A stretch of DNA of 40,420 bases from the NCBI RefSeq assembly GCF_002571225.1, contig NZ_NVEC01000031.1, forward strand, positions 1-40,420, in the 5' to 3' direction. The stretch comes from Bacillus sp. AFS059628 (GTDB taxonomy: Bacteria; Bacillota; Bacilli; Bacillales; Bacillaceae_G). Numbering within the stretch: the first letter of the stretch is position 1; every line of letters starts with the position of its first letter. The notes beneath the pieces were generated by a model. It searched no databases. It was not told the origin of the DNA and saw only the letters and a list, made by a program, of their open reading frames with translations. This document shows, in pieces, positions 9,918 through 28,801 of this stretch. The position numbers and the translations under genes were made by a program.

Positions 9918-9921
9918 AATT

Positions 9922-9944: not shown

Positions 9945-10038
9945 TATCAATCATCACTTTTACTATAAAATAGAAAATCTACAAACATTGCACATTTTCC
10001 ATTTTGTATATACTTCATCATAGTATCACTTTTACATA

Positions 10039-11055
10039 TCAGCCACCAATATGTGACATTTCAATTTTAGGTACTCTTTTCTTACTTGTATGACTTAAAC
10101 GTTCATCTGAATAACGATCTTCTCGGTTGTTCCATATATCACGTACGATATCTGTTATTTCCTCGTCTGTGTAACCAGATCGAAGTAATTCTCTCAAGTC
10201 ATTTCCTTTAGAAGCAAACAAACAAGTATATAATTTCCCTTCTGCAGAAATACGTGCTCTCGTACATGAGGAACAGAAGGAATCGGTTACTGATGAAATG
10301 ATACCTATTTCCTCTTCACTTCCAATATAACGATAGCGAGTTGCAACCTCACCTGCATAATTCGCTTCTATCCGTTCTAATGGCATAACTTGATGAATGG
10401 CATCTACTATTTCTTGTTTAGATACGACCTCTTTTAACTCCCAACCGTTATAATTTCCAACGTCCATATACTCAATAAATCGAAGAATATGTTTATTTTC
10501 CTTAAAGTATCGCGCCATCTGTAAGATGTCCTGTTCATTTTTCCCCTTTTGAACGACCATGTTTATTTTAATTTTCATACCAACTTCAGCTACAGCCTGT
10601 ATTCCTTCTAGTACCCTTTGTACCTTGCTTCTATTGCCGTTCAAATAGAAAAAACGCTCTTCTTCTAAAGAATCCAAACTAACTGTCACACGTGATAAAC
10701 CCGCCTTATATAAATCAGGAGCAAACTTTTTCAGTAACGATCCATTGGTTGTTAAGCCGATATCCTCCACACCATCCACTTTATTAAGGCGCTCAATAAG
10801 CTGCGGAAGACCTCTTCGCAGTAACGGTTCTCCGCCCGTAATTCGTAACTTTCTTACACCTAAAGAAACAAAAATACGTGTTATCCTTTCAATCTCATCA
10901 AAAGATAAAATTTTATCATTAGACAAAAACGAATAATCAGGACCAAATATTTCTTCCGGCATACAATAACGGCAGCGAAAATTACAGCGATCAGTAACAG
11001 AAATACGTAAATCCTTTAAAGGACGTTGTAGTTTGTCTAATGTGACAGATTTCAT
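10039..11055 (-). CDS. moaA: GTP 3',8-cyclase MoaA
   Basis: This 338-residue radical-SAM enzyme performs the first step of molybdenum cofactor synthesis, converting GTP to 3',8-cyclo-GTP (MoaC then forms cPMP). The radical-SAM cysteines are C24, C28 and C31 ([14 protein letters not shown]), followed by [12 protein letters not shown]. The second cluster shows as [21 protein letters not shown], and the C-terminus ends in the expected Gly-Gly. The ATG start lies 20 bases after the fdhD stop. MoaC is not encoded here. Confidence 0.95.
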
Positions 11056-11075
11056 ATTTATTGCCTCGCTTTTAC

Positions 11076-11873
11076 TTATTTTATATTTAAAACACGCTCT
11101 GGATGCGTATATACGTTTAAGGATTGATTCCGAATAAATCCTATCGTAGTAATACCTAATTCTTCTGCTAGCTGCAAAGCCAACTCAGTTGGAGCTGATT
11201 TTGAAAGTATAATTTCACAACCAATCTTTGCAACTTTCAATAATATCTCCGAAGAAATACGACCACTAAAAACAATGATCTTATCGCTTATAGAAATATT
11301 ATTTTTTAAGCAATAACCGTAAATTTTATCTAACGCATTATGTCTACCGATATCCATTCGGCTTAAAATAACGCCATTCACATCACACAAAGATGCATTA
11401 TGAACGCCACCTGTATGACGAAATGTCTCTGCAGATTGCTGCATTTCTTTCATTAATCGAAAACAGTCTTCTGCAGCAACCTGTACATGAACACCATTCA
11501 TTTTCTTTGCACTTAGTGCATCATTTGCAAAAACAAACCCTTGTCTACTCATGCCACAGCATGAAGTAATATAACGTTTATTTTGCATTTGTTCGTAATA
11601 TGGATTCAATTTTGCCGTCGTGACATGTACAAATCCTTCTTTCTCTTGTACCCATATATCATCGATATCTTCATACTTCCGAATGATTCCTTCAGATGCT
11701 AAAAAGCCTATTACCATATCTTCTATATATTCTGGAGTACTAACCATTGTAACAAACTCCTGTCCGTTCATTTTAATCGTGACTGGAAACTCTGTTACAA
11801 TGCTGTCCTCTATATGTTTAAATGCCCCTTGTTCATAACGAAAGATTTCTCTTTCTACCTGTATCGGTTTCAC
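11076..11873 (-). CDS. fdhD: formate dehydrogenase sulfurtransferase FdhD
   Basis: This 265-residue accessory protein delivers sulfur from a cysteine desulfurase to the Mo-bisMGD of formate dehydrogenase, which is needed for activity. Family motifs include [14 protein letters not shown], the cysteine segment [11 protein letters not shown] (C105 and C106), [11 protein letters not shown] and [12 protein letters not shown]. The cysteines are adjacent rather than in the CxxC known from E. coli FdhD. The start is GTG with AGAAGGAT 7 bases upstream. It follows the DUF2294 gene by 16 bases and precedes moaA by 20, so co-transcription is clear. Confidence 0.93.
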
Positions 11874-11889
11874 GATCAGTATCCTTCTC

Positions 11890-12234
11890 TCACGTTATAT
11901 TTTTATCAAAAACAAATACCGAAACTGCAATATCTTCTTCTACTTTCATATCTGAAAACAAATTCACTAATTTCGCTCCAACAAGTTCCTCCAAATGTTC
12001 ACGGGAATTCGCAGCATACACTTCTTGAATCATTTTCGTTCTAGCCATATGAACCATTTCCGCACCGTCCATCGTACTTGAAATAAATTTTTCAGTAGGT
12101 GTTAAGTTTCCATAAAGAGTCGCTATAGCCATATTTTCCGCAAAAACAGTATGAATTCGTTCTGGTCCTTTTCCGAAAAGTTCCTTTCGAAGTTTTCGTA
12201 TCATATCATTAAATTCATGTACTTTTTTTGACAT
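11890..12234 (-). CDS. DUF2294-family protein
   Basis: This 114-residue soluble protein has the pattern RKLRKELFGKGPERIHTVFAEN, LTPTEKFISSTMDGAEMVHMAR and LEELVGAKLVNLFSDM, matching the DUF2294 family, whose function is unknown to me. The ATG start has GGGAGG 9 bases upstream. It sits between yjgD and fdhD in the cluster, so a link to formate metabolism or molybdoenzyme assembly is plausible, but only by position. Confidence 0.8.
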   Translation of the reverse strand: MSKKVHEFNDMIRKLRKELFGKGPERIHTVFAENMAIATLYGNLTPTEKFISSTMDGAEMVHMARTKMIQEVYAANSREHLEELVGAKLVNLFSDMKVEEDIAVSVFVFDKNIT

Positions 12235-12250
12235 ACAATTATACCTCCCA

Positions 12251-12328
12251 AAAGCCTCATTTTACTTTATTATATATTTTACCAAAATGAGCCTTCCGCC
12301 CAAACTATTTCGTACAAATATTCGGGCG
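12251..12328 (-). other. two intergenic stem-loops between yjgD and the DUF2294 gene
   Basis: At 12297-12328 CGCCCGAA and TTTGGGCG close a second short stem (TATTT/AAATA). At 12251-12295 CTCATTTT pairs with AAAATGAG across an AT-rich loop, next to the DUF2294 ribosome site. Neither is followed by a clear T-run, so they may be processing or stability elements rather than terminators. Confidence 0.4.
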
Positions 12329-12350
12329 AAAAGAATTCACTTCATGAAGG

Positions 12351-12833
12351 TTATTCGTCTTTTAACCCTTTCCCCATACCTTTTAAGAAATGAAGCCCAA
12401 ACCCGATAGCACGGTTAATGTCTGGGTCTTTTAATACTTTCATAAGATCGAATACCCCTACTTTTTTATTACTCTCTAGATGTTCATTACCTTCTTCTAG
12501 CCCGACTAATAAACTACCTATAAGCTTTTTCGTAAGTTCTGGGTCAAGTTCAGTTAACGCACCTGCAGCGCCCATCATATTATTAATTAAATTTGTAACA
12601 GGCTCACGAGTTACTTGACCTAGAACAATTTTCGCAATTGGTTCTTTCGCTTTTAGCATTGAATTTGCAGCTTCTAGCATTCCAATGTCATTTAATTCCC
12701 CTACTATATTAAACATCTGATTTAGAGCTTCTTCATTATTAGTTAGAAGCTCTTTTAAATCATCTAACTTTTGCTGTTTTATTTCTTCCTCAGTTAATTC
12801 TTGTTTTTGAATCATTTTTATAGGTGCAGCCAT
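12351..12833 (-). CDS. yjgD: YjgD-like DUF1641 protein
   Basis: This 160-residue, acidic, helical protein has ELNDIGMLEAANSMLKAKEP, PVTNLINNMMGAAGALTELD and the C-terminal KDPDINRAIGFGLHFLKGMGKGL, typical of DUF1641. In B. subtilis yjgD lies directly downstream of the formate dehydrogenase gene yjgC, exactly as here with a 12-base gap. It probably serves the dehydrogenase as a subunit or partner, but this is not shown in the sequence. The ATG start has AGGAGGAG upstream. Confidence 0.9.
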   Translation of the reverse strand: MAAPIKMIQKQELTEEEIKQQKLDDLKELLTNNEEALNQMFNIVGELNDIGMLEAANSMLKAKEPIAKIVLGQVTREPVTNLINNMMGAAGALTELDPELTKKLIGSLLVGLEEGNEHLESNKKVGVFDLMKVLKDPDINRAIGFGLHFLKGMGKGLKDE

Positions 12834-12845
12834 AGTTTTCTCCTC

Positions 12846-15785
12846 CTACTTATCCGTTAAATGCACATACCCTGGACGTGCCCACTTACGATGTACCTCA
12901 ATTCCAGCTTGAGGATGACGTTTTTTATTACGTGGGTTCGCTTTTGGCATCGGATTTTCGCCATCAACTTCTAATACTTCCATACGTACTTTCGTTTGTT
13001 TATACGCAGGTGTATTCGTACGTACATCCACAGCAGGACCTGTTAAGAAATTAATTGCCGTTTCGTTATCTGTAGAGTTCATCGGTAAATATAACTCATT
13101 CGCTTTTACACGATCTGTAACGAGTGCACGTAATTTCAATGCTCCAAAAGGAGAGACAAGACGAACTAACGAACCTGTTTTTACGCCACGTTCTTTTGCA
13201 AGGTCTGGAGAGATTTCAACGAAAACACCAGGTACTTTCGTTTGAATACCTGTTGATTTATTTGTCATATTCCCTTCATGGAAATGTTCAAGCATACGAC
13301 CGTTGTTAATGTGAAGGTCAAACTCAGCTGGAAATTCAGCTGGACGTACCCAGTCAGCAATCGCAAAACGAGCTTTTTTATCTGGGAAGTTAAATCCGTC
13401 TTGGAACAGAAGTGGTGTATTCGTTCCATCAAAACTTCCCCAATGGAAACTGTTCCATCCTTCAAGCACTTCATAGTTCGCTTGCGAGAACAATGGTGAT
13501 AAACTTGCCATCTCAGCAAAGATTTCACTTGGGTGGCTATAATTCCAGTTTGCACCTAGTTTATTCGCAACTTCCTGGACGATCCACCAGTCTGGTTTCG
13601 CATCTCCTAGCGTAGGAAGAACTTGATATAATCTTTGGACACGGCGCTCTGTATTTGTGAACGTACCTTCTTTCTCAAGAGATGGCGCTGCTGGTAATAC
13701 AACATCTGCATATTGAGCAGTTTTAGAAAGGAAAACATCTTGCACAACGAAGAAATCAAGGCTCGATAACACTTCATGTACATGATTTGCATTAGAATCT
13801 ACAAGAGCCATATCTTCTCCGACAAGATACATTGCTTTCATTTTTCCTTCGTCAATTGCGTGAAGCATTTCAATATTATTAAGACCTGGTTCACTATCAA
13901 TTTTCACTCCGTAAGCAGTTTCAAATTTCGCACGTTCCATCTCGTTCGTAACGTGCTGATATCCTGGAAGCCATCCTGGTAAAGTACCCATATCACAAGC
14001 ACCTTGTACGTTATTGTGACCTCGAAGTGGGTATGCACCTGCTCCTGGACGACGATAGTTCCCTGTTGCAAGAAGTAAGTTTGAAATTGCAGCGGAAGTA
14101 TCAGAACCACCTGTATTTTGCGTTACCCCCATACCCCAAAGGATACATGTACCATCTGCATCACGAATCATTTCAGCCATTTGAATAAGTGTTTCTTTTG
14201 AAATACCTGTTACTTCTTCTGCATATTCAAGTGTATATTCTTCTAGGCTTTCTTTGAAATCTTCAAAGAAGTTTACATTCTCATTAATAAATTCCTGATC
14301 ATGCCAGCCTTGATCAATCATATATTTCGTAACAGCCATTAACCATACTTGATCTGTTCCTTGTTTTGGACTAATAAAGACGTCTGAACGCTCTGCCATT
14401 TCTGTTTTACGAAGATCAGCGACAATTAATTTTTGTCCGTGTAATTTATGCGCACGTTTAATACGTGTAGCTAAAACAGGATGACCTTCTGTCGGATTAC
14501 AACCTACAATGATAACAAGACCAGATTGTGCGATGTCTTTAATCGTTCCAGCATCTCCGCCCATACCAATTGTACGGAATAATCCGTCTGTGGCTGGCGA
14601 TTGGCAATAACGTGAGCAGTTATCAATATTATTCGTTTCAAATACTTGTCGGGCTAATTTTTGAATCACATAATTGTCTTCATTTGTAATTTTAGATGAA
14701 GAAATAAAACCGATAGCATCGTTACCGTATTCTTCTTTAATCGATCCTAATTTACTTGCAACTACATGTAGTGCTTCTTCCCAAGTAGATTCAACAAACG
14801 TTCCATTTTTACGAATTAAAGGTTTCGTAATTCGTTCTTTAGAATTTACGAAATCCCAACCGAATTTTCCTTTTACACAAGTAGAAATTGCGTTAACTGG
14901 CGCATCAGAAGAAGGTTGTACTTTAAGGATTTTACGCCCTTTCGTCCACACTTCAAATGAACAACCTACACCGCAAAATGTACATACTGTTTTCGTTTTC
15001 TTCGTACGAGTATCACGCATAGCGGCTTCCACTTCTGATACCGCAAAAATACCGCTATATCCAGGCTCAACCTCTTTAATTAAATCTACCATCGGTTCAA
15101 GAATATCTGTTTTTAATCCTGTCATAAATCCAGCTTCACCGAGCATCGTTTTTTCCATTAAAGCGTTACAAGGGCAAATTGTTACACATTGACCACAGCT
15201 CACGCAGGAAGAGTCATTAATATTTACTCCTTCATCCCAAATAACTCGTGGGCGTTCCGCTTCCCAATCTATCGATAACGTTTCATTTACTTGTAAGTTT
15301 TGACACACCTCAACGCATTGACCGCATGCAATACATTGATTCGGGTCATAGCGATAAAACGGATGCGTCATATCAACTTCACTTACATCCACTTTCGGTT
15401 CATAAGGATATTTTTGATGTTCGATTTCCATTAATTCTGCTGTATTATGCAGTTTACAGTTCCCATTGTTGTTGTCACATACTGTACAGTATAGTAAATG
15501 ATTTTCTAATAACCGATCCATCGCTTCTGTTTGTGCTTCTTTTGCACGAGCAGAATTACGTTCAATATTCATACCTTCTGTCACTACTGCCGAACAAGAG
15601 CGCATTAACTTTCCGTTAACTTCTACAATACAAGTGTCACATGTTTGAATAGGATCTACTTCTGGCACGTAACAAATTTGCGGATGTTCAATCCCGTTCT
15701 CATTAATCACACCCAATATTGTTGAACCGGGCTCCGCTGTATACTTTTTTCCGTCAATTGTAATATGAACCATGTTGTTATTCAT
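12846..15785 (-). CDS. formate dehydrogenase alpha subunit (YjgC type, Mo-bisMGD)
   Basis: This 979-residue molybdoenzyme is predicted to oxidise formate to CO2. In order it has a 2Fe-2S domain (C38, C49, C52, C64), a His-Cys3 4Fe-4S site (H96, C100, C103, C110), a two-cluster ferredoxin domain (C151, C154, C157, C161 and C194, C197, C200, C204), and the molybdopterin part with a 4Fe-4S site (C268, C271, C275, C303). Cys394 in NCSRYCQSPA replaces selenocysteine as Mo ligand. It has no signal peptide, so it is cytosolic. The start is ATG 15783-15785 behind AAGGGGGAAA; the 53 extra upstream codons lie in the leader. It heads the cluster. Confidence 0.95.
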   Translation of the reverse strand: MNNNMVHITIDGKKYTAEPGSTILGVINENGIEHPQICYVPEVDPIQTCDTCIVEVNGKLMRSCSAVVTEGMNIERNSARAKEAQTEAMDRLLENHLLYCTVCDNNNGNCKLHNTAELMEIEHQKYPYEPKVDVSEVDMTHPFYRYDPNQCIACGQCVEVCQNLQVNETLSIDWEAERPRVIWDEGVNINDSSCVSCGQCVTICPCNALMEKTMLGEAGFMTGLKTDILEPMVDLIKEVEPGYSGIFAVSEVEAAMRDTRTKKTKTVCTFCGVGCSFEVWTKGRKILKVQPSSDAPVNAISTCVKGKFGWDFVNSKERITKPLIRKNGTFVESTWEEALHVVASKLGSIKEEYGNDAIGFISSSKITNEDNYVIQKLARQVFETNNIDNCSRYCQSPATDGLFRTIGMGGDAGTIKDIAQSGLVIIVGCNPTEGHPVLATRIKRAHKLHGQKLIVADLRKTEMAERSDVFISPKQGTDQVWLMAVTKYMIDQGWHDQEFINENVNFFEDFKESLEEYTLEYAEEVTGISKETLIQMAEMIRDADGTCILWGMGVTQNTGGSDTSAAISNLLLATGNYRRPGAGAYPLRGHNNVQGACDMGTLPGWLPGYQHVTNEMERAKFETAYGVKIDSEPGLNNIEMLHAIDEGKMKAMYLVGEDMALVDSNANHVHEVLSSLDFFVVQDVFLSKTAQYADVVLPAAPSLEKEGTFTNTERRVQRLYQVLPTLGDAKPDWWIVQEVANKLGANWNYSHPSEIFAEMASLSPLFSQANYEVLEGWNSFHWGSFDGTNTPLLFQDGFNFPDKKARFAIADWVRPAEFPAEFDLHINNGRMLEHFHEGNMTNKSTGIQTKVPGVFVEISPDLAKERGVKTGSLVRLVSPFGALKLRALVTDRVKANELYLPMNSTDNETAINFLTGPAVDVRTNTPAYKQTKVRMEVLEVDGENPMPKANPRNKKRHPQAGIEVHRKWARPGYVHLTDK

Positions 15786-15806
15786 GGTCTTTCCCCCTTT
15801 TTGAGA

Positions 15807-15870
15807 ATAAAAAAACTCCACCACGAAAATATACGCACCACATTTCGGCACGTTATTATCATGGTGGAGT
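15807..15870 (-). terminator. leader terminator (attenuator candidate) of the formate dehydrogenase gene
   Basis: On the minus strand ACTCCACCA (15870-15862) pairs perfectly with TGGTGGAGT (15823-15815), followed by a run of seven T. It ends about 10 bases before the ribosome site and lies inside the transcript that starts near 15964. CACCA in the first arm could instead pair with TGGTG in the loop (near 15836-15842), giving a possible competing structure. Confidence 0.8.
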
Positions 15871-15876
15871 AGTTTA

Positions 15877-15893
15877 TTAGCACATCTTGCTAA
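15877..15893 (-). promoter_or_regulatory. leader hairpin with AAGATGTGC motif, formate dehydrogenase leader
   Basis: On the minus strand UUAGCA pairs with UGCUAA around AGAUG. The hairpin lies 6 bases upstream of the terminator stem and carries AAGATGTGC (15880-15888), shared with the formate-channel leader. The shape recalls hairpins bound by antiterminator proteins, but the loop does not fit the ANTAR hexaloop rule. Confidence 0.5.
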
Positions 15894-15957
15894 AATACCA
15901 ATCCATTTATTCATAAATAAAACGATAGATTCATAACAGGTCATATCACGATTCCAT

Positions 15958-16081: not shown

Positions 16082-16438
16082 ATGGGGTCTTTTAATAAAT
16101 GGATACGTGGTGAAAAATCTTTTTCTGCACAAGAGCAAGCTGATCACCTATTAAATAAATCTATCTCTTCTTCTCTTTTCCTTAATCTAAAGCACTTGTC
16201 CAAGCTGTTTAGTGGTATTCCAGAATTAATTACACGAACCTTTCCGTTAAAAAACGGAAAAGAAGCTGCCCTTATATATATGGAAGGACTTGTAGACAAA
16301 ACCGTTATTAACATTGATATTCTTCGCCCACTCCTATTTAAAGAGTGGAATGAAGATAATTGGCCGAGTGCCTTTTCAAAAGCTAACGTGAAAGTAACTC
16401 CTACTATTAAAATTTTAGAAAACGGGATTATTAAATAG
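16082..16438 (+). CDS. stand-alone N-terminal domain of a GerA-type germinant receptor subunit
   Basis: This 118-residue protein resembles only the start of GerAA/GerKA/GerLA-type proteins: LNLKHLSKLFSGIPELITRTF, AALIYMEGLVDKTVINIDIL and a following PLLF. Full family members are about 480-500 residues, with a second soluble subdomain and about five membrane helices. All of that is missing here. The ATG start has AAGGAG 10 bases upstream, and a strong terminator follows the stop at once, so the gene looks complete as it stands rather than freshly broken. It may be a degenerate remnant or a functional soluble decoy or regulator. Confidence 0.7.
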   Translation: MGSFNKWIRGEKSFSAQEQADHLLNKSISSSLFLNLKHLSKLFSGIPELITRTFPLKNGKEAALIYMEGLVDKTVINIDILRPLLFKEWNEDNWPSAFSKANVKVTPTIKILENGIIK

Positions 16439-16440
16439 TA

Positions 16441-16489
16441 AAAAACACGCTACTTGCTCTTATACATTTAAAGAGTAAATAGCGTGTTA
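16441..16489. terminator. bidirectional terminator
   Basis: AAACACGCTA (16443-16452) pairs with TAGCGTGTT (16480-16488), and an inner TGCTCTT/AAGAGTA pairing extends the stem. There is an A-run on the left and a T-rich right flank. It serves both the GerA-fragment gene and the convergent 44-residue ORF. Confidence 0.85.
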
Positions 16490-16518: not shown

Positions 16519-16653
16519 TTACACTTCTGTCTCTTGTTCTTCGTTTTCCACTTCTTCCAATCTTTGCTGCTCTGCAAGTTCAGCTGAAATCATTCCATAA
16601 TAAATTTCTGGATACAATCCAAATATTTGATATACACTTCCTAAAAACGGCAT
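16519..16653 (-). CDS. 44-residue small protein downstream of the tubulin-like gene
   Basis: I recognise no family. The reading frame gives MPFLGSVYQIFGLYPEIYYG, then MISAELAEQQRLEEVENEE and QETEV: an aromatic N-terminal half and a strongly acidic helical tail. The ATG has AGAGGG 6 bases upstream, the frame starts 57 bases after the tubulin-like gene, and a terminator follows. These points support a real gene and membership of the vWA-tubulin operon. The acidic tail could mediate binding to a partner, though that is inference. It is too short for most automatic gene finders. Confidence 0.55.
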   Translation of the reverse strand: MPFLGSVYQIFGLYPEIYYGMISAELAEQQRLEEVENEEQETEV

Positions 16654-16710
16654 CGGAATCCCTCTTTTCTAAAGTTGTATTGCCACTTTTAAGGATTCCC
16701 TATTCATTCA

Positions 16711-19700
16711 TTATACATTCGTTTTTGACGTTTCCTCTTCATCATGAACGCTTAATAAATTTTGCCACTTTTTATAAGGAGCACTATTTGGATCTACATA
16801 TCCTTTCGCATACGAACGATCCCACAATTGTTTAATAAACATCTCTTTCTCTTTCTTTGCAACCATATCGGCACCTGTACCGTAATAGTTTTGGAAATAT
16901 AACTCAATTTCATCAAGGAATAGCCTTAATAATTCATCAGAAGTTTCTTCTAGCGTTGGGTCATATTTCGCTTCACGGTCATACATTAAAATCATATCTA
17001 AAATATTATGGACATGCTCTTTACGAAGCCATCTAATATCTTGAGCGCCTAATACAAACGGATGTGTATATAAATGTCCACCTTGTATCATCGCCTTTTC
17101 TTGTTCTTCTTCAAATCTGGACAAGATGTTTTCATAAATAAATGGGTTATGAAGCAATGCTCTGTGTAATTTATAACTTTCGCTTGAAATATTTTTCCCC
17201 ATCGATTGAATTAAGAAGCTACGTCCAACGCCGTTATATTGATATACAAACTGGCCATCAACAGCAACTAAACTAATCCAGCGATACATATACGCGTATA
17301 GAAGAGCGCGATTACATTTATCGTAATCTAACTTCGTTTGCGTTGCATTTAAGTCTGGCATGAATGCTGGTAAGTGCCAATACTTATCTAAATGCGGCGT
17401 TAAACTAGATTTTTTACTATTCAACTTGTTCACTCGGCGATAGTACGACTGAAAATAATCACCTTTATCATTCATAAATCCATTTGCAATATGTCCAGAC
17501 GAAAGCTTTGGAAAGTCTTGCAACGATAAACCGTAATGTGCACGATAACAAATGACTTCAAATGGCGAGAAAGCTTCATGTACTGTATCCTTTTCTTTAA
17601 ACATTTCTTGCATTAATTCCTCTTGCAGTTCTTTCTTTAAAGATGGATGTATACCCCAGTATTGTAATTCCCTATGATGTGAAACTTTCGGCACGAATGG
17701 ACTTGCTAAATGGAACAAGTCTTCAATTTTTTCACGGACATATTCATCACGATCACGCTTCTTATAATCCGCTTCTTTTCTTAGTGCTTCAACGATATTT
17801 AGCTCTAATTTATCGCGATAGCGTATTTGTAATTCATCGTAGCAGTAACTTAGTATGTGCTCACGATAAAAGTCTTCTACCTTTTTCGATTGAATCTCTT
17901 CCGTTTTCGCATCCCGGCAATATTCCCCGTATAAACTCATATAAATTTCTGCTGATATATCTTTCGGTAATACTCCTAAATTTAAATGTTGCTGCATATC
18001 TTGCCATATCTTTTCTTGCAACTTCTCTTCCGCTAATACGTATACATTCGTTGGGTTTGTTTTCCCTTCAAATTCCTTGCTTCGTTTTTGAATTTCGAAC
18101 AATAAATTTTCACGTGTTTCGTGTAAATTATCAAAAAATCTTTCCCAATATTGAATCATTTTATTAACCACTTGATATAGCGATTGATAAACGAGTTCTA
18201 ATAGCATTTCTTTACGATACTCGTTTAATTTGTGTACGTACTGCGTTACAATGTCTTCAAATTCCTTTTTAAATAAACGCTGCTGATTATGAATCATTTT
18301 TCCAAACCAGCCTTGTTGCTGCGCGATTTCTACTCGGCGCACAGCTGTTACCGTTCCATCAATATTACTCACATTAAATTTCTTATCGTAGTTTTGAATT
18401 AAATTACGCTTTTGTTCATTATTTTCATGTAGTCGATTCATTTTCTCGACTAACTGCTTTCGAATTTCATACAACATAAAACGAGCGGATACTGGATGAA
18501 CAGGATCTGTTTTCTTTAAAAACCATGTATTTAATTGATATGACTGTCCCTCAGAACCACTTGGTGAAAAACGGTCTGATTCAATCATGTCATATAAAAG
18601 TGTCGTTACATGTTCATGTACACGGCTCGGAATCGCATACGCATATAAACGAACCGCATGATCCACCCTTGCTACTTCACCTTTCATTTGTTCCATCATT
18701 TTCAGTTTCGCAGCTGAAATTTTACACTCATGCTGTAGACGATTTAATTCCTCATCTTTTTGCACCGTACGCTGTACATAACTTTCTACAGCCTCTAAAA
18801 ACAGTTTAGATTTCGCAACTCCAACCTTACCGCCTTCTGCTCCTTCACGCGTTTCATTATACATTTGTCTATAGAAAATATGAGCCTGTTCTGGGCGAGT
18901 AGCAAGATGTTCTAAGTCTTCTAAATAACTTTTCCCTCGCTCTGGCTTTTCACGTTGCATACCACGTTTTACATCTTGATCATACCTTTGTTTCTTCTCT
19001 TGAAACAGTTGATCTAAATGAAGCCAAGATTCATCTAAACCTTGCACAGCCCATTTTAAAGCACAATATTTTAACACGTGCTCATACGGATAAATAATCT
19101 TTGCCGTTCCTGCACCGCAATATCGCCCTTTCCCGCTCGATTCTGCTAATTGTTGAATTTGATTATCTTCCTGTGCAAAATGGTTTGCAGACATCGGACT
19201 AAATAACTGTAAATAAATCGTATTGGCCATTTGCTCCATATAATCTGATAAATTATGCAGATGGTGTCCATGTAAATTTTCGTAATCGTATAAGAAACAA
19301 TAATTGTACGGTAAATGATGTTGTTTAATCGTATGATTCGTTCTTCCATCTTCATCTACTTGATCAGGTCGATACTCTAATTCAATCGTCACGCCACCAC
19401 GCTTTGACAATTCTCCAGTAGAGCCGAGTGTAATGGCATGTAATTCTTTTAACGATGCATAGCCGTTTGCTTGCACCGTTTCAAACTCTTTTGCACTAAC
19501 TGTTCTCGTCTTCACTAACACGTCTGGCATTAGAAACGCACCGCGTATTAAAATGTTGTGATGTTGCAGTTTTTTCCGAAGCATTTCACGTAAATATAAT
19601 GCAATTTGTAGAAACATCCCTGAACCTGTTCCGCCCGCTAGCGATGTTACAATAATGACACGCACTCCATATTCCGTTTGATCGCTTGTAACCGGAAAAA

Positions 19701-20073
19701 TTTTCTCAATTTCTTGCCAAAAGGACGTCAATTTATCTTCTTTCATCGCAGCACGTAACGCTAAACGGGAAATAACACGTAACTGTCCTGCCCCTTCTGT
19801 CAGTGGTTTATCAAGTATTGTCGGGTCCATCGGAAACCACTCTGGAATCGTTGGATCTCCCGCAATATACTCTCTTGGCGTTTTACTCGAACTCGTTTGT
19901 GTTTTAAACTTTCGAATATGGTCAAATTTACTCAATGTATTCACATCTGTATCAAATACGTGCATTGCTACCTTTTTCCGGCGCTCCTCAGGTAGTCTTT
20001 CATATATTTGATGTGTTACAGTACTACCGATTCCACCTAAACCAATTAATATCGTTGGAACTTGTAACGTCAT
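16711..20073 (-). CDS. large tubulin/FtsZ-like GTPase (Tubulin_2 type)
   Basis: This 1120-residue protein has tubulin-superfamily nucleotide-binding features near its N-terminus: IGLGGIGST (residues 10-18), FDTD (40-43) and VTSLAGGTGSGMF (142-154), the last matching the tubulin/FtsZ G-box GGGTGSG. The remaining 900 or so residues are charged and largely helical, with no membrane segment. This fits the long prokaryotic tubulin-like family (PF13809 type). I recall a report of such proteins co-occurring with von Willebrand A proteins and being proposed to remodel membranes. The start is ATG 20071-20073 after GGAAGGTGG; a GTG three codons upstream is too close. It lies 76 bases after the vWA gene. 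Confidence 0.85.
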   Translation of the reverse strand: MTLQVPTILIGLGGIGSTVTHQIYERLPEERRKKVAMHVFDTDVNTLSKFDHIRKFKTQTSSSKTPREYIAGDPTIPEWFPMDPTILDKPLTEGAGQLRVISRLALRAAMKEDKLTSFWQEIEKIFPVTSDQTEYGVRVIIVTSLAGGTGSGMFLQIALYLREMLRKKLQHHNILIRGAFLMPDVLVKTRTVSAKEFETVQANGYASLKELHAITLGSTGELSKRGGVTIELEYRPDQVDEDGRTNHTIKQHHLPYNYCFLYDYENLHGHHLHNLSDYMEQMANTIYLQLFSPMSANHFAQEDNQIQQLAESSGKGRYCGAGTAKIIYPYEHVLKYCALKWAVQGLDESWLHLDQLFQEKKQRYDQDVKRGMQREKPERGKSYLEDLEHLATRPEQAHIFYRQMYNETREGAEGGKVGVAKSKLFLEAVESYVQRTVQKDEELNRLQHECKISAAKLKMMEQMKGEVARVDHAVRLYAYAIPSRVHEHVTTLLYDMIESDRFSPSGSEGQSYQLNTWFLKKTDPVHPVSARFMLYEIRKQLVEKMNRLHENNEQKRNLIQNYDKKFNVSNIDGTVTAVRRVEIAQQQGWFGKMIHNQQRLFKKEFEDIVTQYVHKLNEYRKEMLLELVYQSLYQVVNKMIQYWERFFDNLHETRENLLFEIQKRSKEFEGKTNPTNVYVLAEEKLQEKIWQDMQQHLNLGVLPKDISAEIYMSLYGEYCRDAKTEEIQSKKVEDFYREHILSYCYDELQIRYRDKLELNIVEALRKEADYKKRDRDEYVREKIEDLFHLASPFVPKVSHHRELQYWGIHPSLKKELQEELMQEMFKEKDTVHEAFSPFEVICYRAHYGLSLQDFPKLSSGHIANGFMNDKGDYFQSYYRRVNKLNSKKSSLTPHLDKYWHLPAFMPDLNATQTKLDYDKCNRALLYAYMYRWISLVAVDGQFVYQYNGVGRSFLIQSMGKNISSESYKLHRALLHNPFIYENILSRFEEEQEKAMIQGGHLYTHPFVLGAQDIRWLRKEHVHNILDMILMYDREAKYDPTLEETSDELLRLFLDEIELYFQNYYGTGADMVAKKEKEMFIKQLWDRSYAKGYVDPNSAPYKKWQNLLSVHDEEETSKTNV

Positions 20074-20149
20074 GTGAACCACCTTCCTATTCTTGCTTGT
20101 TTGAGAAAAGGAGAGAGAAAGCTAAAACCCTCCCTCTTCATCGTATCTA

Positions 20150-22249
20150 CTATTCACACTCGTACCTGTAAATTTCTTTACCGTATCCTCTATCAATTAC
20201 TAAAAGTTCATTTGGATATAGCGTCTTATGTTCCATTCCAACCTCATCCTCTGTTATAAACATCCCATCAATAATCATTCCTACTACTTGTGACTCTTTC
20301 GCTACAAATATCGATTTCGATCCTTTCTTTGCTATAAATGTAACGGATTGTACTGTCTTCCTTTCCGCTCTAAACGGAATGCCAAAATAATGTTTCCACC
20401 ATTTATTTTTAAGTAATTCTGGCTCAGATTGATATAACCAATCTTTCGCTACTTCTTGATCCCATTCGTAATACAATAATGCTTTCCGGTGAAATCTTGG
20501 ACGAACAATCCATCCTAAAACGATTATTCCTACTATTAACAGTAATAAAGTGATAGGAATAACAAACTTAAAAATAAGCGCATATTTTTCATAAAACGGT
20601 GCATTTTGAATATGAAGTGATATTTTTTTCTTTACTTCTTGTAATTTTGAATCTTGCACTACGATGGTAGCTTCTACGGTGCCGGTATCTGTGAAATTAA
20701 ATGTGTCGGAGTAATGAGGGCGAGGATAAATATAAATTTGATTACCCTGTTGTTTTATTTCATAGTTGATTGATTGTTTAGATGTGACACCAGTAGATTT
20801 TAATAGTTTCTTTACAGCCTCTTCTGTCATCGGCTTACCATCTAACTGTGGTTGTATAATAAACGGTTTACTATTCTCTAAATTTGTTACTTTTTCTTCA
20901 TAATCTTTCGTAATCGTTTGTAGTGATAATTTTGGTTTTTCCGTTACTTCGATTTTAAATTCTTTCGTCTGTCTGTAAAATCCCTTTATGTTCATATGAA
21001 CTTTCCCACGTACTAAACCTTTATCAACCTTCATTTCGTAGTAAAATACATGTTTTTTATCGTCCCATTTCATCGGGTACTGTTTTCCGTCTATTTCTAC
21101 TTCTGCCTGAAAATAGGAAGGCTGAATTGGTAATTCCGTAGGCTGCGCTTCAATAACAGCAGTAACACCTTCGTACATTTCTTCCACATTTTTTTGACTA
21201 CTATCCTCTTTGTCATAAGTAGAAACGGTATAGTTAAGCGCCGGTTCAACTAGTACCTGTAGTCCTTCTTTCTCAATATCGCGATCCACTTCTATCGTAT
21301 ACGTTCCTGGTTTAATAACTTCCTGATTTTCCGTATTGATATGAACTATATTTCCGAATAATTTCGCTTCTCCTGGTGCATGTATGGAATAAGAAGATTG
21401 TAATTGTAACGGTTTAGAAATTTGTGTGACCTGATAATTAGACAAAGAAGGCGATTGTCGTACAAGCGTCATACGCTTTAACGGAAATGGTGTTGTAATC
21501 TCTACTTTCTTTCCTACTACTTTCGTTTTTACAATCGATTCAACTGAAGAGAACGGATCACGATTTGCAACTAATGCTGCTACTTGATTGACGCTTTTTA
21601 CAATACCATCCTCTCCACTAGATGGCATCGTAACTCCATTTATCTCTTTCTTCCATATTTCTTTAAACGTATTTAGCTGTGCCTTTTCTTGCTGTCCTAA
21701 ATCCTCTTCCATCGTAATTAAAATTGGATGTAACGATATCTTTTTTGCATCCATATCTTTCTTAAACTGCGCTAGTTTCTGCAAAATTTGTTCTTTTCCA
21801 CCAACCTTATCTTTCTCTAAATCATTAAATGCCCCGTCAGTTAAGACAATAAGCCAAAATTCACGTTTTCCATCTATATCTGCTTCCTTTTTTATAGATT
21901 GCATCGCCGTTTCTACTGCGCTAAACGGAGTATTTAAATACGTCTTCCATGCTCCAATTCCCTCAATTTCTGTTTGTCTCTTATCCTTCGTTAACGAAAT
22001 GTTTAATGGATCATTCGGTTTGCTCATTGGAACGTAAGAAAATTTATCTTTTTCATCTAATAGCGCAACTAAACTTTGCAAAGCGTAATTGGCATATTTC
22101 CAGCGATCGTTATTTCTCATGCTGCCCGAATCATCATATACAAGTGAAACGACCCTTTCCTTTGCCTCCTCTCCTTTTGCAAAAGTCCAAAAAGGATGTA
22201 ACCATATAAATAGAAACAACATGAATGTGGCACAAATTCGAATTTTCAT
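20150..22249 (-). CDS. membrane-anchored von Willebrand factor A protein
   Basis: This 699-residue protein has a signal peptide (hydrophobic residues about 8-24, likely cleaved after a TFAKG-like site). A vWA domain follows, with the metal-binding MIDAS motif DDSGS (39-43) and LTDGAFND. Next come beta-rich, possibly Ig-like modules, one membrane helix (about 556-581, FVIPITLLLLIVGIIVLGW) and a 117-residue basic cytoplasmic tail. The bulk is therefore outside and the tail inside, where it could contact the tubulin-like protein encoded next. The start is ATG 22247-22249. AAAGGTGG lies rather far upstream (12 bases), and longer frames lack a ribosome site and would spoil the signal peptide. Confidence 0.85.
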   Translation of the reverse strand: MKIRICATFMLFLFIWLHPFWTFAKGEEAKERVVSLVYDDSGSMRNNDRWKYANYALQSLVALLDEKDKFSYVPMSKPNDPLNISLTKDKRQTEIEGIGAWKTYLNTPFSAVETAMQSIKKEADIDGKREFWLIVLTDGAFNDLEKDKVGGKEQILQKLAQFKKDMDAKKISLHPILITMEEDLGQQEKAQLNTFKEIWKKEINGVTMPSSGEDGIVKSVNQVAALVANRDPFSSVESIVKTKVVGKKVEITTPFPLKRMTLVRQSPSLSNYQVTQISKPLQLQSSYSIHAPGEAKLFGNIVHINTENQEVIKPGTYTIEVDRDIEKEGLQVLVEPALNYTVSTYDKEDSSQKNVEEMYEGVTAVIEAQPTELPIQPSYFQAEVEIDGKQYPMKWDDKKHVFYYEMKVDKGLVRGKVHMNIKGFYRQTKEFKIEVTEKPKLSLQTITKDYEEKVTNLENSKPFIIQPQLDGKPMTEEAVKKLLKSTGVTSKQSINYEIKQQGNQIYIYPRPHYSDTFNFTDTGTVEATIVVQDSKLQEVKKKISLHIQNAPFYEKYALIFKFVIPITLLLLIVGIIVLGWIVRPRFHRKALLYYEWDQEVAKDWLYQSEPELLKNKWWKHYFGIPFRAERKTVQSVTFIAKKGSKSIFVAKESQVVGMIIDGMFITEDEVGMEHKTLYPNELLVIDRGYGKEIYRYECE

Positions 22250-22423
22250 GATGAGGCTTCGCCACCTTTGTAGACAAATTCCTATGTTTAAATTTATGAG
22301 AGGATGCAAGATATATGACTTGTATTTTAGGACAACGAACACAGCATAACTTTATTATGTAAACAGTTATACACACTGAATATGATTCCTTCTAGCGTTT
22401 TCTATCCGATACTATAAGTAAAA

Positions 22424-22457
22424 AAGTCTGTTTAAGCTCTACACTTAAAACAGACTT
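22424..22457. terminator. terminator downstream of the VOC gene
   Basis: AAGTCTGTTTAAG (22424-22436) pairs with CTTAAAACAGACTT (22444-22457), with T-runs on both sides. It isolates the vWA operon from the VOC gene upstream. Confidence 0.85.
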
Positions 22458-22505
22458 TTCCTACTTTTTATATTGAAAACAAATAACAAAAAGTTTGATT
22501 TTGAA

Positions 22506-24775: not shown

Positions 24776-26482
24776 CTATTTCTCTTCAATATACGCCCAT
24801 TTAAAGCTATATTCCGGACTAATATTATGTTTTACAATTCCCTTTACATTCGGTTTCATAACATATGATTTAGCACTTTGATATAAAGGTACGAGCGCTA
24901 CATCTTCTTCAAGTAACAATTTCTCTGCCTTCCCTAATTCTGTCCAACGTTTTTTTGCATCAGCCATCCATTCTGTCTTACTTTTCGTAATAGCGTCATC
25001 ATATTTTGAATTTGAGTAGCTCATCTGATTTTGAGAATTTGTCGTTTCAAACATATCAAGGTACGTCATTGGATCCGCATAATCTGGATTCCAGCCACCA
25101 TATGAAAAATCATAATCTTGGTCTGATTCTAATTTTAGTTTTTGTTTAAATGGTTGCAATTTAATATTTACTGTCACGCCTTTCAAATTCTTTTCAACTT
25201 GATCTTTTACATACTCCCCAACTTTTTTCGCATTACCAGTATCATAATTTAACAGTTCAATTGTTACTTGATCTTTTCCAAGTTCTTTTTTCGCTTCTTC
25301 CCAAGCTGCTGCTGCCTTTTTGGAGTCTTGTTTTAAACCATTCTTGAACGTTTCTGCGAAATCTTTACCGTCTGGTCCACTCGCTAAACCTTTTGGTACT
25401 AAGTAATCCACTGGTTTTGAACCATCATTTAAAATGACATTCGTTAAAGCTTTCTTATCAATTGATAATGCAATTGCTTCACGTAATTTTTTGCTCTTTA
25501 ACGGTGTATCTTGCCCGCCACGCTTTTGGTTTAAACGTAAGTAAAACGTACTTGTTTCCGAATAGGCTCCAAATTCCTCTTTATTATTTCTATACTTATC
25601 AACGAATTCACCTGATAATAGTGCGAAATCAATCGCTCCTGTATCATATAAATTTACTCTAGTAGCTGGTTCTTTAACTACACTATAGTTAATTTCTTCT
25701 AGTTTTACAGTCTTTTTGTCCCAATACTGCTCATTTTTCTTTAATTTCCATCCTTGCTCATGTTTCCAATCAGTAAGAACGAACGGTCCGTTATATACTG
25801 TTGTATCAGACTCTAAACCGAATTTATTCCCTTTTTCTTTTACGAACTTTTCATTTAATGGATAGTATGACGCAAATGCCATTAAGTTCAAGAAATATGG
25901 TACAGGCCTTTCTAGTTCTACTTCAAGTGTATAATCATCTACCGCTTTTACACCTAATGTAGAAACTTCTCCTTTTCCTTGATTAATCGCTTCTGCATTT
26001 TTAAGATAGTAAGCAATAAATGCATACTCAGCAGCTGTTTTTGGATCTACTAGACGTTGCCATGCAAATACAAAATCTTTCGCTGTTACAGGATCACCGT
26101 TTGACCATTTTGCATCTTTCCGCAGTTTAAATGTATATTTTTTACCATCCTCACTTTTTGTGCTAGATTCTGCTACAGCTGGGATTGGCTTATTATCTTT
26201 ATCAAGGCGATATAACCCTTCCATCGTATTCCCTAAAATTTGTGAGCCAAGTGTATCTGTATTTTTTGAAGTATCCATCGTCGGAATTTCATTCGTTTCT
26301 GTACGATTTAGCACTTGCTTTGCCGCATATTTAATATCAGATTTCTTCTCTTCTCCACCATTATTAGATGTCGTTGTCGTTTTCTTCTCCCCACCTGAAG
26401 ATCCAGAACACGCTGTTAACGCCATACTCATCGCTAAAACTGGTGCTACAACCGCCGTAAACTTTTTCATCTTTTTCTTCAT
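24776..26482 (-). CDS. oppA: OppA-type oligopeptide-binding lipoprotein (paralogue A)
   Basis: This 568-residue extracellular lipoprotein is the substrate receptor of an oligopeptide ABC importer. A signal peptide ends in the lipobox LTAC with lipidated Cys25, then a Ser/Thr/Lys/Gly linker and an SBP_bac_5 domain (YTFKLRKDAKWSNGDPVTAKDF, YNGPFVLTDWKHEQGWKL, LREAIALSIDKK). No OppBCDF genes lie nearby, so it must use a transporter encoded elsewhere. The ATG start has GGGGAGGG upstream. It is the last of three tandem paralogues, each transcribed from its own promoter. Confidence 0.93.
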   Translation of the reverse strand: MKKKMKKFTAVVAPVLAMSMALTACSGSSGGEKKTTTTSNNGGEEKKSDIKYAAKQVLNRTETNEIPTMDTSKNTDTLGSQILGNTMEGLYRLDKDNKPIPAVAESSTKSEDGKKYTFKLRKDAKWSNGDPVTAKDFVFAWQRLVDPKTAAEYAFIAYYLKNAEAINQGKGEVSTLGVKAVDDYTLEVELERPVPYFLNLMAFASYYPLNEKFVKEKGNKFGLESDTTVYNGPFVLTDWKHEQGWKLKKNEQYWDKKTVKLEEINYSVVKEPATRVNLYDTGAIDFALLSGEFVDKYRNNKEEFGAYSETSTFYLRLNQKRGGQDTPLKSKKLREAIALSIDKKALTNVILNDGSKPVDYLVPKGLASGPDGKDFAETFKNGLKQDSKKAAAAWEEAKKELGKDQVTIELLNYDTGNAKKVGEYVKDQVEKNLKGVTVNIKLQPFKQKLKLESDQDYDFSYGGWNPDYADPMTYLDMFETTNSQNQMSYSNSKYDDAITKSKTEWMADAKKRWTELGKAEKLLLEEDVALVPLYQSAKSYVMKPNVKGIVKHNISPEYSFKWAYIEEK

Positions 26483-26522
26483 TCTTGTACCCTCCCCAAT
26501 TTATATGTACGAAACTAACTTT

Positions 26523-26556
26523 GAGAGATTTCTAATTCAAATTATCAGAAGATTAT
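26523..26556 (-). promoter_or_regulatory. 5' leader hairpin of OppA paralogue A
   Basis: TTCTAAT (26530-26536) pairs with ATTATCAGAA-type sequence (26541-26550) just after the predicted start site. It is the weakest of the three equivalent leader hairpins (compare 28533-28569 and 30541-30594). Confidence 0.45.
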
Positions 26557-26567
26557 TACTAATTATT

Positions 26568-26595
26568 ATTCTACTAATTTTCCTTGGAATGTAAA
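26568..26595 (-). promoter_or_regulatory. promoter of OppA paralogue A
   Basis: On the minus strand TTTACA, a 16-base spacer and TAGAAT, identical in both boxes and spacer length to the promoters at 28580-28607 and 30604-30631. The 304-base gap holding it otherwise contains the ribosome site, the leader hairpin, AT-rich sequence and the terminator of paralogue B. Confidence 0.7.
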
Positions 26596-26736
26596 GTATT
26601 TTTAAAAATATTCGTAATAATTAATTTATTTAATTTAATAACAATCTATTACTACTATACGAATTCTCCCCCATCTACTATATGTAAGTACCACTTTTCT
26701 TATTCTTCTCTATCTATTTAAATTTAATTGGATAGC

Positions 26737-26786
26737 AAAAGAGCATTTTAAAAAATAAATAATATATTTTTCAAACGCTCTTTTTT
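26737..26786 (-). terminator. terminator of OppA paralogue B
   Basis: On the minus strand AAAAGAGCGTTT pairs with AAATGCTCTTTT, with an AT-rich extension of the stem. It lies directly after the stop of paralogue B. Confidence 0.75.
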
Positions 26787-28493
26787 CTATTTCCCTTCCG
26801 TTACATACGCCCACTTAAAGCTATATTCTGGACTAATATTGTGTTTCACAATTCCTTTAACAGTTGGTTTCATTACATACGCTCTTCCTGTTTGATATAA
26901 AGGAACTAGCCCAGCATCTTCTTCAAGGAATAGTTTTTCAGCTTTTCCTAACGTTTCCCAACGTTTCTTCGCATCACCCATTAATTCATTACCTGCTTTT
27001 TGTACCATTTCGTCGTATTTTGCATTTGAATAACTCATTTGGTTATATGGACTCTTCGATTCAAACATATCAATAAATGTCATTGGATCCGCATAGTCTG
27101 GACTCCAACCTGCATAAGAAATTTCATAATCTTGTGCAGTCTCTAATTTTAATTTTTGTTTGAACGGCTGAATTTTTGTATTAATTGTTACACCTTTTAA
27201 ATTTTTCTCAATTTGATCTTTAACATAATCAGCAATCTTTTTCGCAGTTCCATCATCATAGCTTAGTAATTCAATTGTAACTTGATCTTTTCCAAGTTCT
27301 TTTTTCGCTGCTTCCCAAGCTGCTGCACCTTTTTTCGGATCATATTTCAGACCATTTTTAAATGTATCTTGGTAATCTTTACCGTCTGGTCCTGTCGCAA
27401 GTCCTTTTGGTACTAATTGATCTGTTGCTTTTGAACCGTTATTTAAAATAACATTTGCTAAACCTTTTTTATCAACTGATAATGCGATTGCTTCACGTAG
27501 TTTTTTGCTCTTTAACGGTGTATCTTGTCCGTTACGCTTTTGATTTAAACGTAAGAAGAATGTACTTGCTTCTGAATACTCACCGTACTCATCTTTGTTC
27601 GATTTATATTTATCTACAAATTCTCCTGATAGCAGTGTGAAATCAATTGATCCTGTATCATATAAGTTTACTTTCGTCGCAACTTCTTTTACTACACTAT
27701 AGTTGATTTCTTCCAATTTCACAGTCTTCTTATCCCAATACTTATCATTTTTCTTTAGCTGCCATCCTTGTTCATGTTTCCATGAAGACATCACGAACGG
27801 TCCATTATACACCGTTGTATCTGCTTCTAAACCGTACTTATCGCCTTTTTCTTTTACGAATTTTTCATTTAACGGATAGTATGATGGGAATGCTAGTAAA
27901 TTCAAGAAATATGGTACTGGTTTTTCTAATTCGACTTCTAGTGTATAATCATCTACTGCTTTTGCCCCCAAATCTGTTAGAGGTTTTTCACCCTTATTAA
28001 TTGCTTCTGCGTTTTTAATATAGTAAGCAATAAATGCGTATTCTGACGCTGTGTTTTTATCAAGTAAGCGCTGCCATGCAAATACGAAATCTTTCGCTGT
28101 TACAGGATCACCATTCGACCATTTTGCATCTTTACGTAATTTAAATGTATATTTTTTGCCATCCTCGCTTTTCGTACTAGATTCTGCAGCAGCTGGGATT
28201 GGCTTATTATCTTTATCAAGACGATATAATCCTTCCATCGTGTTCCCTAAAATTTGTGACCCTAACGTATCAGTAGATTTAGAAGTATCCATCGTCGGAA
28301 TTTCTTGATTCTCTGTACGATTTAATACTTGTTTTGCTGCGTATTTAATTTCGGATTTGTTCTCTTCCCCACCACCATTAGACGTCGTAGTTGTTTTCTT
28401 CTCCCCACCAGATCCGGAACACGCTGTCAACGCCATACTCACCGCTAAAACTGGTGCTACAACCGCCGTGAACTTTTTCATCTTTTTCTTCAT
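26787..28493 (-). CDS. oppA: OppA-type oligopeptide-binding lipoprotein (paralogue B)
   Basis: This 568-residue protein is the second of three tandem paralogues, and the signal peptide and first part are nearly the same as paralogue A. It has lipobox Cys25, a linker of Gly/Thr/Lys, and the SBP_bac_5 domain. Differences cluster in the ligand-binding half: for example DYEISYAGWSPDYADPMTFI and SKSPYNQMS here against DYDFSYGGWNPDYADPMTYL and TTNSQNQMS in A. This suggests altered peptide preference. The ATG start has GGGGAGGG upstream. It has its own promoter and terminator. Confidence 0.93.
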   Translation of the reverse strand: MKKKMKKFTAVVAPVLAVSMALTACSGSGGEKKTTTTSNGGGEENKSEIKYAAKQVLNRTENQEIPTMDTSKSTDTLGSQILGNTMEGLYRLDKDNKPIPAAAESSTKSEDGKKYTFKLRKDAKWSNGDPVTAKDFVFAWQRLLDKNTASEYAFIAYYIKNAEAINKGEKPLTDLGAKAVDDYTLEVELEKPVPYFLNLLAFPSYYPLNEKFVKEKGDKYGLEADTTVYNGPFVMSSWKHEQGWQLKKNDKYWDKKTVKLEEINYSVVKEVATKVNLYDTGSIDFTLLSGEFVDKYKSNKDEYGEYSEASTFFLRLNQKRNGQDTPLKSKKLREAIALSVDKKGLANVILNNGSKATDQLVPKGLATGPDGKDYQDTFKNGLKYDPKKGAAAWEAAKKELGKDQVTIELLSYDDGTAKKIADYVKDQIEKNLKGVTINTKIQPFKQKLKLETAQDYEISYAGWSPDYADPMTFIDMFESKSPYNQMSYSNAKYDEMVQKAGNELMGDAKKRWETLGKAEKLFLEEDAGLVPLYQTGRAYVMKPTVKGIVKHNISPEYSFKWAYVTEGK

Positions 28494-28532
28494 TTTTGTA
28501 CCCTCCCCAATTATATGTACGAAACTAATTTT

Positions 28533-28569
28533 GAGAGATTTTCTAATAAATATTTATCAGAAAATTCTC
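28533..28569 (-). promoter_or_regulatory. 5' leader hairpin of OppA paralogue B
   Basis: On the minus strand ATTTTCTGATAAAT pairs with ATTTATTAGAAAAT (13 Watson-Crick pairs and one G-T) and is flanked by GAG/CTC. It sits at the predicted 5' end of the transcript. Confidence 0.6.
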
Positions 28570-28579
28570 ATTAATTAAT

Positions 28580-28607
28580 ATTCTACTAACTTTTCTATTT
28601 TTGTAAA
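28580..28607 (-). promoter_or_regulatory. promoter of OppA paralogue B
   Basis: On the minus strand TTTACA, 16 bases, TAGAAT. The rest of the 308-base gap is AT-rich, with the leader hairpin, ribosome site and the terminator of paralogue C. Confidence 0.7.
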
Positions 28608-28748
28608 GTTATTTTTTAAAATATTTAGAAAATTTATTTTACTTAACGATAGTAACATTCTATTTTCTATGACCATCCTACACGTATCCTCCATCTACTA
28701 CATTTCATTTCTTCTCTACTCTTTCATTTTCACTTTCAATTGCACAAT

Positions 28749-28793
28749 AAAAAAAGTACTTCAAGGCATGTAGTCTGCTTTGAAGTACTTTTT
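28749..28793 (-). terminator. terminator of OppA paralogue C
   Basis: AAAAAGTACTTCAA pairs with TTGAAGTACTTTTT, followed by a T-run on the minus strand. Confidence 0.9.
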
Positions 28794-28801
28794 CAACTCT
28801 A

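Follow-up and report, generated by a model that had tools for sequence, protein, structure and literature searches.

What would a Bacillus do with a giant tubulin-like protein encoded next to a membrane protein that carries a von Willebrand factor A (vWA) domain? The question is raised by a pair of genes on the minus strand of a 40,420-nucleotide stretch of Bacillus sp. AFS059628 (contig NZ_NVEC01000031.1, positions 1 to 40,420), which we call the window throughout. This pair is a real, reduced variant of a known, functionally unsolved system, and it lies in a neighbourhood shared by its clade. With a probability that we put at roughly 0.42, it is a minimal, two-gene and sporulation-linked form of the vWA-FtsZl1 (Tubulin_2) system, in which a tubulin-like scaffold or switch would be anchored at a membrane of the mother cell. 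The elements on which this reading leans, all on the minus strand, are:

22291..22319, minus strand: SigE-type promoter candidate GTCATATA-N13-CATAAATT, beginning 70 nucleotides before the vWA start codon (scan, alignment)
20150..22249, minus strand: gene of the exported single-pass vWA protein, 699 residues (open reading frame, Pfam, AlphaFold, Foldseek)
22121..22135, minus strand: core of the metal-ion-dependent adhesion site (MIDAS), D39-x-S41-x-S43 (sequence; YDDSGSM in 13 of 13 aligned vWA proteins)
20507..20563, minus strand: single membrane segment of the vWA protein, residues 563-581 (hydropathy)
20153..20506, minus strand: 118-residue inside tail of the vWA protein (hydropathy, alignments)
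16711..20073, minus strand: gene of the giant tubulin-like protein, 1120 residues (open reading frame, Pfam, alignments)
19039..20052, minus strand: Tubulin_2 domain (PF13809), residues 8-345 of the tubulin-like protein (Pfam)

The class itself is not new. In a 2010 study such proteins are described as FtsZl1, with a vWA gene beside them in most operons, and membrane remodelling is proposed as their role (PMC2875224). The vWA neighbour and the proposed role had also been mentioned in an earlier, sequence-only reading of this DNA. A reviewer of that paper names a vWA gene of B. thuringiensis konkukian, so a Bacillus member was already in the 2010 set; a term search of its main text returned no word beginning with 'spor'. 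A 2023 study set Tubulin_2 proteins aside as too divergent (PMC9871819), and our literature search, with most subscription journals beyond reach, turned up no recognisable experimental study of the FtsZl1-vWA family. The window shares with the 2010 systems an N-terminal tubulin domain followed by a long C-terminal remainder, and a vWA protein with a signal peptide and MIDAS. In contrast to them it has two genes only, without the GTPase, kinase or OmpA partner, it carries a conserved SigE-like element, and a T6-like asparagine can be pointed out in its tubulin-like protein.

That protein contains the tubulin boxes GLGGIGS and AGGTGSG and matches PF13809 over positions 1-354 of the 356-position profile (272.5 bits against a cut-off of 27, E 7.7e-81), with both the T1 (GxGGxG) and the T4 (GGTGSG) loop of FtsZl1/Tubulin_2 proteins. 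FtsZ, which is also present in all eight genomes checked, shares T1, T4 and H5 by hhalign and the T6-like asparagine by eye; unlike FtsZ, the window protein is three times longer and its PF00091 match remains below the cut-off (28.3 against 33 bits), and it is not classed as an FtsZ. The comparison of 24 homologues with eight FtsZ sequences gave an hhalign probability of 90.8 (E 1.2e-6, a single comparison) and an alignment that spans T1, the DTD strand, GAG, T4 and H5 and is not reliable past H5, while a global comparison on a 13-sequence subset failed. A profile search of the PDB ranked FtsZ first, at an E-value of only 0.047. The plasmid and phage tubulins TubZ/RepX and PhuZ belong to the tubulin superfamily as well; they differ in that only a weak PhuZ profile match was obtained (E 0.028).

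The residues expected to hold GTP are retained across the family: G13, G14, G16, G147, T149, G150 and G152 in 29 of 29 homologues, and G11, G148 and S151 in 28. Past H5, N266 is kept in 28 of the 29 (the exception is L061) and is invariant in 22 of 22 sequences of a smaller alignment made without L056, L061 and L063. It closes the hydrophobic strand after H5, a setting like that of the asparagine in 'VDTLIVIPND' of FtsZ, with a family-specific insert between. The candidate for the T7 acid is D303, found in 25 of 29 homologues and not in L061, L063, L127 or L131; both this and the T6-like assignment were made by eye. The 2010 study had been unable to align T6-H7 (PMC2875224), and pointing out a T6-like asparagine in this previously unalignable region appears to be new here. 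Membership of the tubulin superfamily, claimed by the sequence-only reading, is borne out by the PF13809 and hhalign profiles; the loss of GTP-binding residues in orthologues, which that reading had named as a ground for refuting it, is not seen.

The partner protein has a signal-peptide-like N-terminus and, by hydropathy, one further hydrophobic segment. Its MIDAS is complete (D39, S41 and S43 plus T107 and D138), and the count of 13 of 13 for YDDSGSM leaves aside the fragment in L048. The Pfam VWA_2 match is sub-threshold (24 against a curated 27 bits, E 6.5e-5); the vWA fold is nonetheless recovered in an AlphaFold model of mean predicted local distance difference test (pLDDT) 66.1, which is best in the vWA domain (block means of 62-91 over residues 31-230), usable over much of a beta-rich stretch to about residue 545, and of low confidence in the tail. 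Foldseek with this model retrieved the solved vWA domains 9qh8 (rank 34) and 7n1o (rank 43), at target TM-scores of 0.49 and 0.51, below larger proteins such as Sec23/24 and integrins. The predicted topology, read from the sequence, places the vWA and beta-rich domains outside, followed by one membrane segment and a tail of 118 residues inside; the exported, single-pass protein with an intact MIDAS that had been described before is confirmed. In five loci of the window's clade, without the near-copy L043, no region of the protein is better conserved than the tail: its mean identity is 62.8%, that of the vWA domain 55.7%, and the remaining ectodomain reaches 37.7-46.5%. All 21 vWA proteins measured from two operon types have a tail of 113-119 residues; in the more distant proteins of L062 and L063 it is 163 and 141 residues long. 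We infer that the tail may serve for docking, each tail changing in step with the tubulin it belongs to.

How the pair relates to its kin was traced in loci of up to 20 kb. A contig search gave L001 (Ectobacillus funiculus, 78%) and L002 (Bacillus sp. 165, 64%), to which were added 22 further whole-domain matches and three weak ones; in the latter three, blastp with the window tubulin protein found nothing. A vWA gene adjoins the tubulin gene in 24 of 25 loci, window included (L061 has none, and L048 only a piece), where neighbours were called by blastp with the window vWA protein or by clustering with the Pfam-confirmed vWA protein of L045; three of five plasmid loci also have one. The window's clade comprises six loci (window, L001, L002 and L042-L044), in which the operon consists of the vWA and tubulin genes only. 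In all eight loci of its sister clade (L047-L054) the order vWA-tubulin is the same, with tubulins 41.5-45.8% and complete vWA proteins 28-29.5% identical to those of the window, but two genes are added, c5 (about 720 residues) and, last in the operon, c3 (about 1280 residues), and the SigE-like string is absent. Neither c5 nor c3 was found in the clade genomes (0 of 5 for each), and both were found in the three sister genomes tested. This contrast between a clade-specific two-gene operon and a four-gene sister operon is, as far as the sequences tell, new here.

A tree of 29 proteins, built from 24 of the 25 loci (without L056) plus five plasmid copies, supports the window clade at 100/100 and its union with the c5/c3 sister clade at 97/97, followed by L062 and L127; it carries a long-branch warning and its deep part is unsure. 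The c3 protein has N-terminal membrane segments, a C-terminal HExxH and a weak, sub-threshold match to the DUF6782 metallopeptidase family. A homologue over most of its length occurs in L062 (genome G469; hhalign probability 100), and partial homology extends to the Azospirillum plasmid locus L127 (89.5, E 2e-6), to which the L062 copy itself scores only 1.3. On the simplest reading, c3 was lost in the window's lineage. No link could be made between c5 and the third genes of other operons. The type-2 operons (L045, L046 and L055-L060, perhaps from Paenibacillus-like bacteria) resemble the window in having a vWA protein with a tail of about 117 residues adjoining the tubulin gene, and differ in their further genes and in tubulins that are about 25% identical over 230-400 residues; among those of L045 are genes for a double-GTPase protein (PF19993) and for another vWA membrane protein. 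L063 encodes, beside the tubulin gene, a second protein that bears a GLGGAG motif (6611-8410). In L048 the vWA gene is cut to a piece of 174 residues (10689-11213) and c5 and c3 each lie in two frames, and this operon appears to be decaying. Plasmids yielded no close copy of the tubulin (seven records, all below 60% identity). PF13809 scored above its cut-off in 6 of the 19 genomes from the family to which genome G001 belongs (five over the whole domain), in 16 of 397 sampled from the order (14 whole-domain) and in 11 of 398 sampled from the phylum (10 whole-domain).

What sets the two-gene form apart is the region upstream of it. SigE promoters combine a KMATATT-like -35 element and a CATA-like -10 element at a fixed spacing. 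The string GTCATAT-N14-CATA is found in six of six window-clade loci, 69-87 nucleotides before the vWA start (in L044 the distance is counted to an internal start that fits the other vWA proteins), and has no further occurrence among the 28 loci that were scanned (1,099,402 strand bases). Since L042 and L043 are near-copies, five of the six loci are independent. The spacers have diverged among the clade loci, and in an alignment of five of them the SigE-type block is the best-conserved upstream block; the five scored sites match 12-13 of 15 positions of the SigE consensus. Elements at fixed spacing, conserved in relatives, are present as in a SigE regulon. In the same genomes, taken as controls, the best SigE-type site before spoIVA is GTCATAAT-N15-CATA in three of five and that before spoIIID is GCATATA-N14-CATACAAT in three of five. 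The genes for SigE, SpoIVA and SpoIIID are above cut-off in all five clade genomes, and SigE in 16 of 18 tested genomes with Tubulin_2. For the other sigma factors scanned, no site recurs at a common position in the clade loci. Of the two settings that the sequence-only reading had offered, envelope stress found no backing, the best SigW- and SigB-type sites lying at differing places, and the link to sporulation gained a specific conserved promoter candidate. A conserved element resembling a SigE mother-cell promoter is, to judge from these alignments, new evidence for a place of the system in sporulation. In the sister clade, TGTCGAA was seen by eye upstream of the vWA gene in L049, L053 and L054, a motif that we take to be Spo0A-box-like, and L053 has upstream a 10/10 SigW-type site and a 15/15 SigH-type site that overlaps a ribosome-binding-like GGAGG.

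Under the favoured reading, SigE would turn on the vWA-tubulin unit in the mother cell during sporulation. The vWA protein would be inserted in the membrane of the mother cell or in the outer membrane of the forespore, its metal-binding domain would point to the exterior or to the space that surrounds the forespore, and its tail would hold the GTP-binding tubulin-like protein on the mother-cell face. There the latter would act as a GTP-controlled scaffold or polymer that links whatever the ectodomain binds to the shape of the membrane or to the building of the envelope around the forespore. A bolder and rather doubtful extension is that of a developmental tubulin: an ancient membrane-remodelling (or conflict) system would have been stripped to two proteins and put under SigE in one Bacillaceae lineage, where a transmembrane vWA receptor may organise a GTP-driven scaffold facing the forespore.

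Several observations weigh against the sporulation reading. The promoter string was chosen after seeing the data, and the SigE score at single loci is not striking (shuffle p 0.01-0.095 for the five sites); the same scan fails to single out spoIVA (p 0.13-0.64). In four whole genomes the string has 19 matches against 13 for a reversed control, and of the 19, four are the vWA sites, nine lie inside long frames and six elsewhere. It occurs in no sister-clade locus, and L044 has an 11/12 SigA-type site further upstream. The main text of a transposon-sequencing study of sporulation in B. anthracis names no tubulin or vWA gene, and it states that most coat and exosporium genes are missing from its screen for heat resistance (PMC12700454). 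The system is dispensable, because only 5 of the 19 genomes of the G001 family have a full-domain copy and L048 is decaying. The AlphaFold model of the tubulin-like protein is poor (mean pLDDT 37.1 from a three-sequence alignment, nearly all helix past residue 331), and the tubulin fold is for that reason a profile result and not a structural one. Outside the window's clade the tail lags behind the vWA domain in conservation, both between clades (24.0% against 39.2%) and within the sister clade (36.3% against 48.2%), which weakens the case for the tail as a dock. No homology was detected between the tails of one operon type and those of the other (probability 2.6, E 0.018, with at most 0.4 in 20 shuffled controls), and a fold shared between them was not shown. 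Finally, neither Azospirillum plasmid locus has a vWA neighbour (by annotation, and for L127 also by hhalign).

The alternative that survives best keeps the two proteins and gives up the filament: a GTP-dependent switch for signalling or transport, a nucleotide-controlled hub docked on the vWA protein, much as reviewer 1 of the 2010 paper suggested (PMC2875224). No canonical T7 motif (NxDxxD) was recognised in the alignment of 29 homologues, where D303 is no more than a candidate acid (25 of 29), and with PF00091 below its cut-off this would suit a protein that does not polymerise; the absence of filaments is, moreover, among the options that the 2010 authors give for FtsZl1. We nevertheless consider it unlikely, as T1, the T3-like GA, T4 and the T6-like asparagine are kept almost without exception, and all characterised members of the superfamily form filaments according to the same text (PMC2875224).

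Somewhat less likely still is a general, vegetative membrane-remodelling device for which the SigE-like site is incidental or one of several inputs. The family does extend outside spore formers (control genomes; Thermaceae, Azospirillum), and other sites are at hand: SigW-type (10/10, L053) and SigH-type (14-15/15, L054 and L053) in the sister clade, TGTCGAA in L049, L053 and L054, and the SigA-type site of L044. In the window, however, no SigA site of 9/12 stands directly upstream of the vWA gene, and the block that the five clade loci conserve best is the SigE-type one.

An anti-phage or conflict system is very improbable for the window, since PADLOC has no match for its three proteins, the six neighbouring open reading frames run against Pfam include no mobile or defence family, and the neighbourhood is common to relatives (downstream with the clade loci, upstream with L001). 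The idea draws on plasmids, where three of three Thermaceae loci (L128, L129 and L130) are ordered vWA, tubulin, unknown, brxL (BrxL confirmed in L128 at E 6.3e-98, by annotation in L129 and L130) and two caspase-family genes lie beside the tubulin gene in Azospirillum L131; vWA domains are also reportedly mentioned often in a paper on conflict systems. Other lineages may use the system in conflict; nothing in the window points to such a role. HEPN, exonuclease or helicase genes are annotated nearby in L128-L130.

The remaining features of the locus concern the limits of the transcription unit:

16519..16653, minus strand: open reading frame of 44 residues, its N-terminus related to a 100-102-residue protein in L002, L042 and L043 (open reading frame, alignment)
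16444..16488, minus strand: intrinsic terminator ending the unit, below the 44-residue frame (dG -20.3, z -4.2, with a T-run)
22416..22466, minus strand: intrinsic terminator downstream of the glyoxalase-like gene that precedes the unit (dG -20.9, z -5.5, with a T-run)
20112..20137, minus strand: hairpin in the 76-nucleotide vWA-tubulin gap, possibly a weak attenuator (simple terminator scan, folding)

The three open reading frames follow each other in the order of transcription vWA, tubulin-like, 44-residue frame, at the places and on the one strand given for them before. In all 13 loci compared, a set without L048 and the other operon types, 14-76 nucleotides separate the vWA gene from the tubulin gene (the start codon of L044 is uncertain). 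Short gene spacing and flanking terminators support a single, terminator-bounded unit of the vWA and tubulin-like genes, with the 44-residue frame, and so back the single operon that the sequence-only reading had proposed. The 76-nucleotide gap as a whole folds no better than shuffled sequence (z -0.66). The simple scan, which found five terminators against 3.6 expected, has both flanking ones missing from its output, presumably through limits on loop size and stem form.

A role for the small frame in the device was not borne out. Of its first 15 residues, 10 are invariant in an alignment with a protein of 100-102 residues encoded at the same place in three of five relatives (not in L001 or L044), and because of this shared N-terminus it is probably not a chance frame. 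The family of the longer protein is not tied to the tubulin, since it turns up in 97 of the 397 genomes sampled from the order, against 16 of 397 with Tubulin_2 above cut-off, many of its matches lacking the N-terminus shared with the 44-residue protein. As a dedicated partner the frame was dropped on these counts; most probably it is a neighbouring gene in shortened form that rides on the same transcript, and not a core part. A plasmid search found no copy of it.

The upstream neighbourhood is common to the window and L001, and the downstream genes to the clade loci. In the window a minus-strand block (4884-15944) that by eye resembles molybdenum-cofactor and formate-dehydrogenase genes, with MpsC and DUF1641 by Pfam, separates the operon from the genes that directly follow it in relatives (clusters c10-c12 and c14). 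Convergent with the operon, a plus-strand frame of 118 residues (16082-16438) resembles GerA spore germination proteins at their start only (PF03323, E 8e-6, just below cut-off) and looks like a short germination-gene remnant. Three similar tandem proteins of 568, 568 and 567 residues (24776-30505, minus strand) look by eye like oligopeptide-binding lipoproteins.

FtsZl1-vWA genes have been on record in bacteria and archaea since 2010, the function of the family being unsolved. A two-gene version whose candidate promoter is specific to a stage and a cell, found in relatives with sporulation genes, offers a defined time, cell and phenotype in which that function can be tested. If the bolder extension, the developmental tubulin, is true, sporulation in this lineage would involve, besides FtsZ, a further cytoskeleton of the tubulin type that B. 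subtilis does not have. The sporulation reading would also bring a cytoskeletal part into the standard model of sporulation, which has none of this kind; PF13809 has no match in the B. subtilis control genome.

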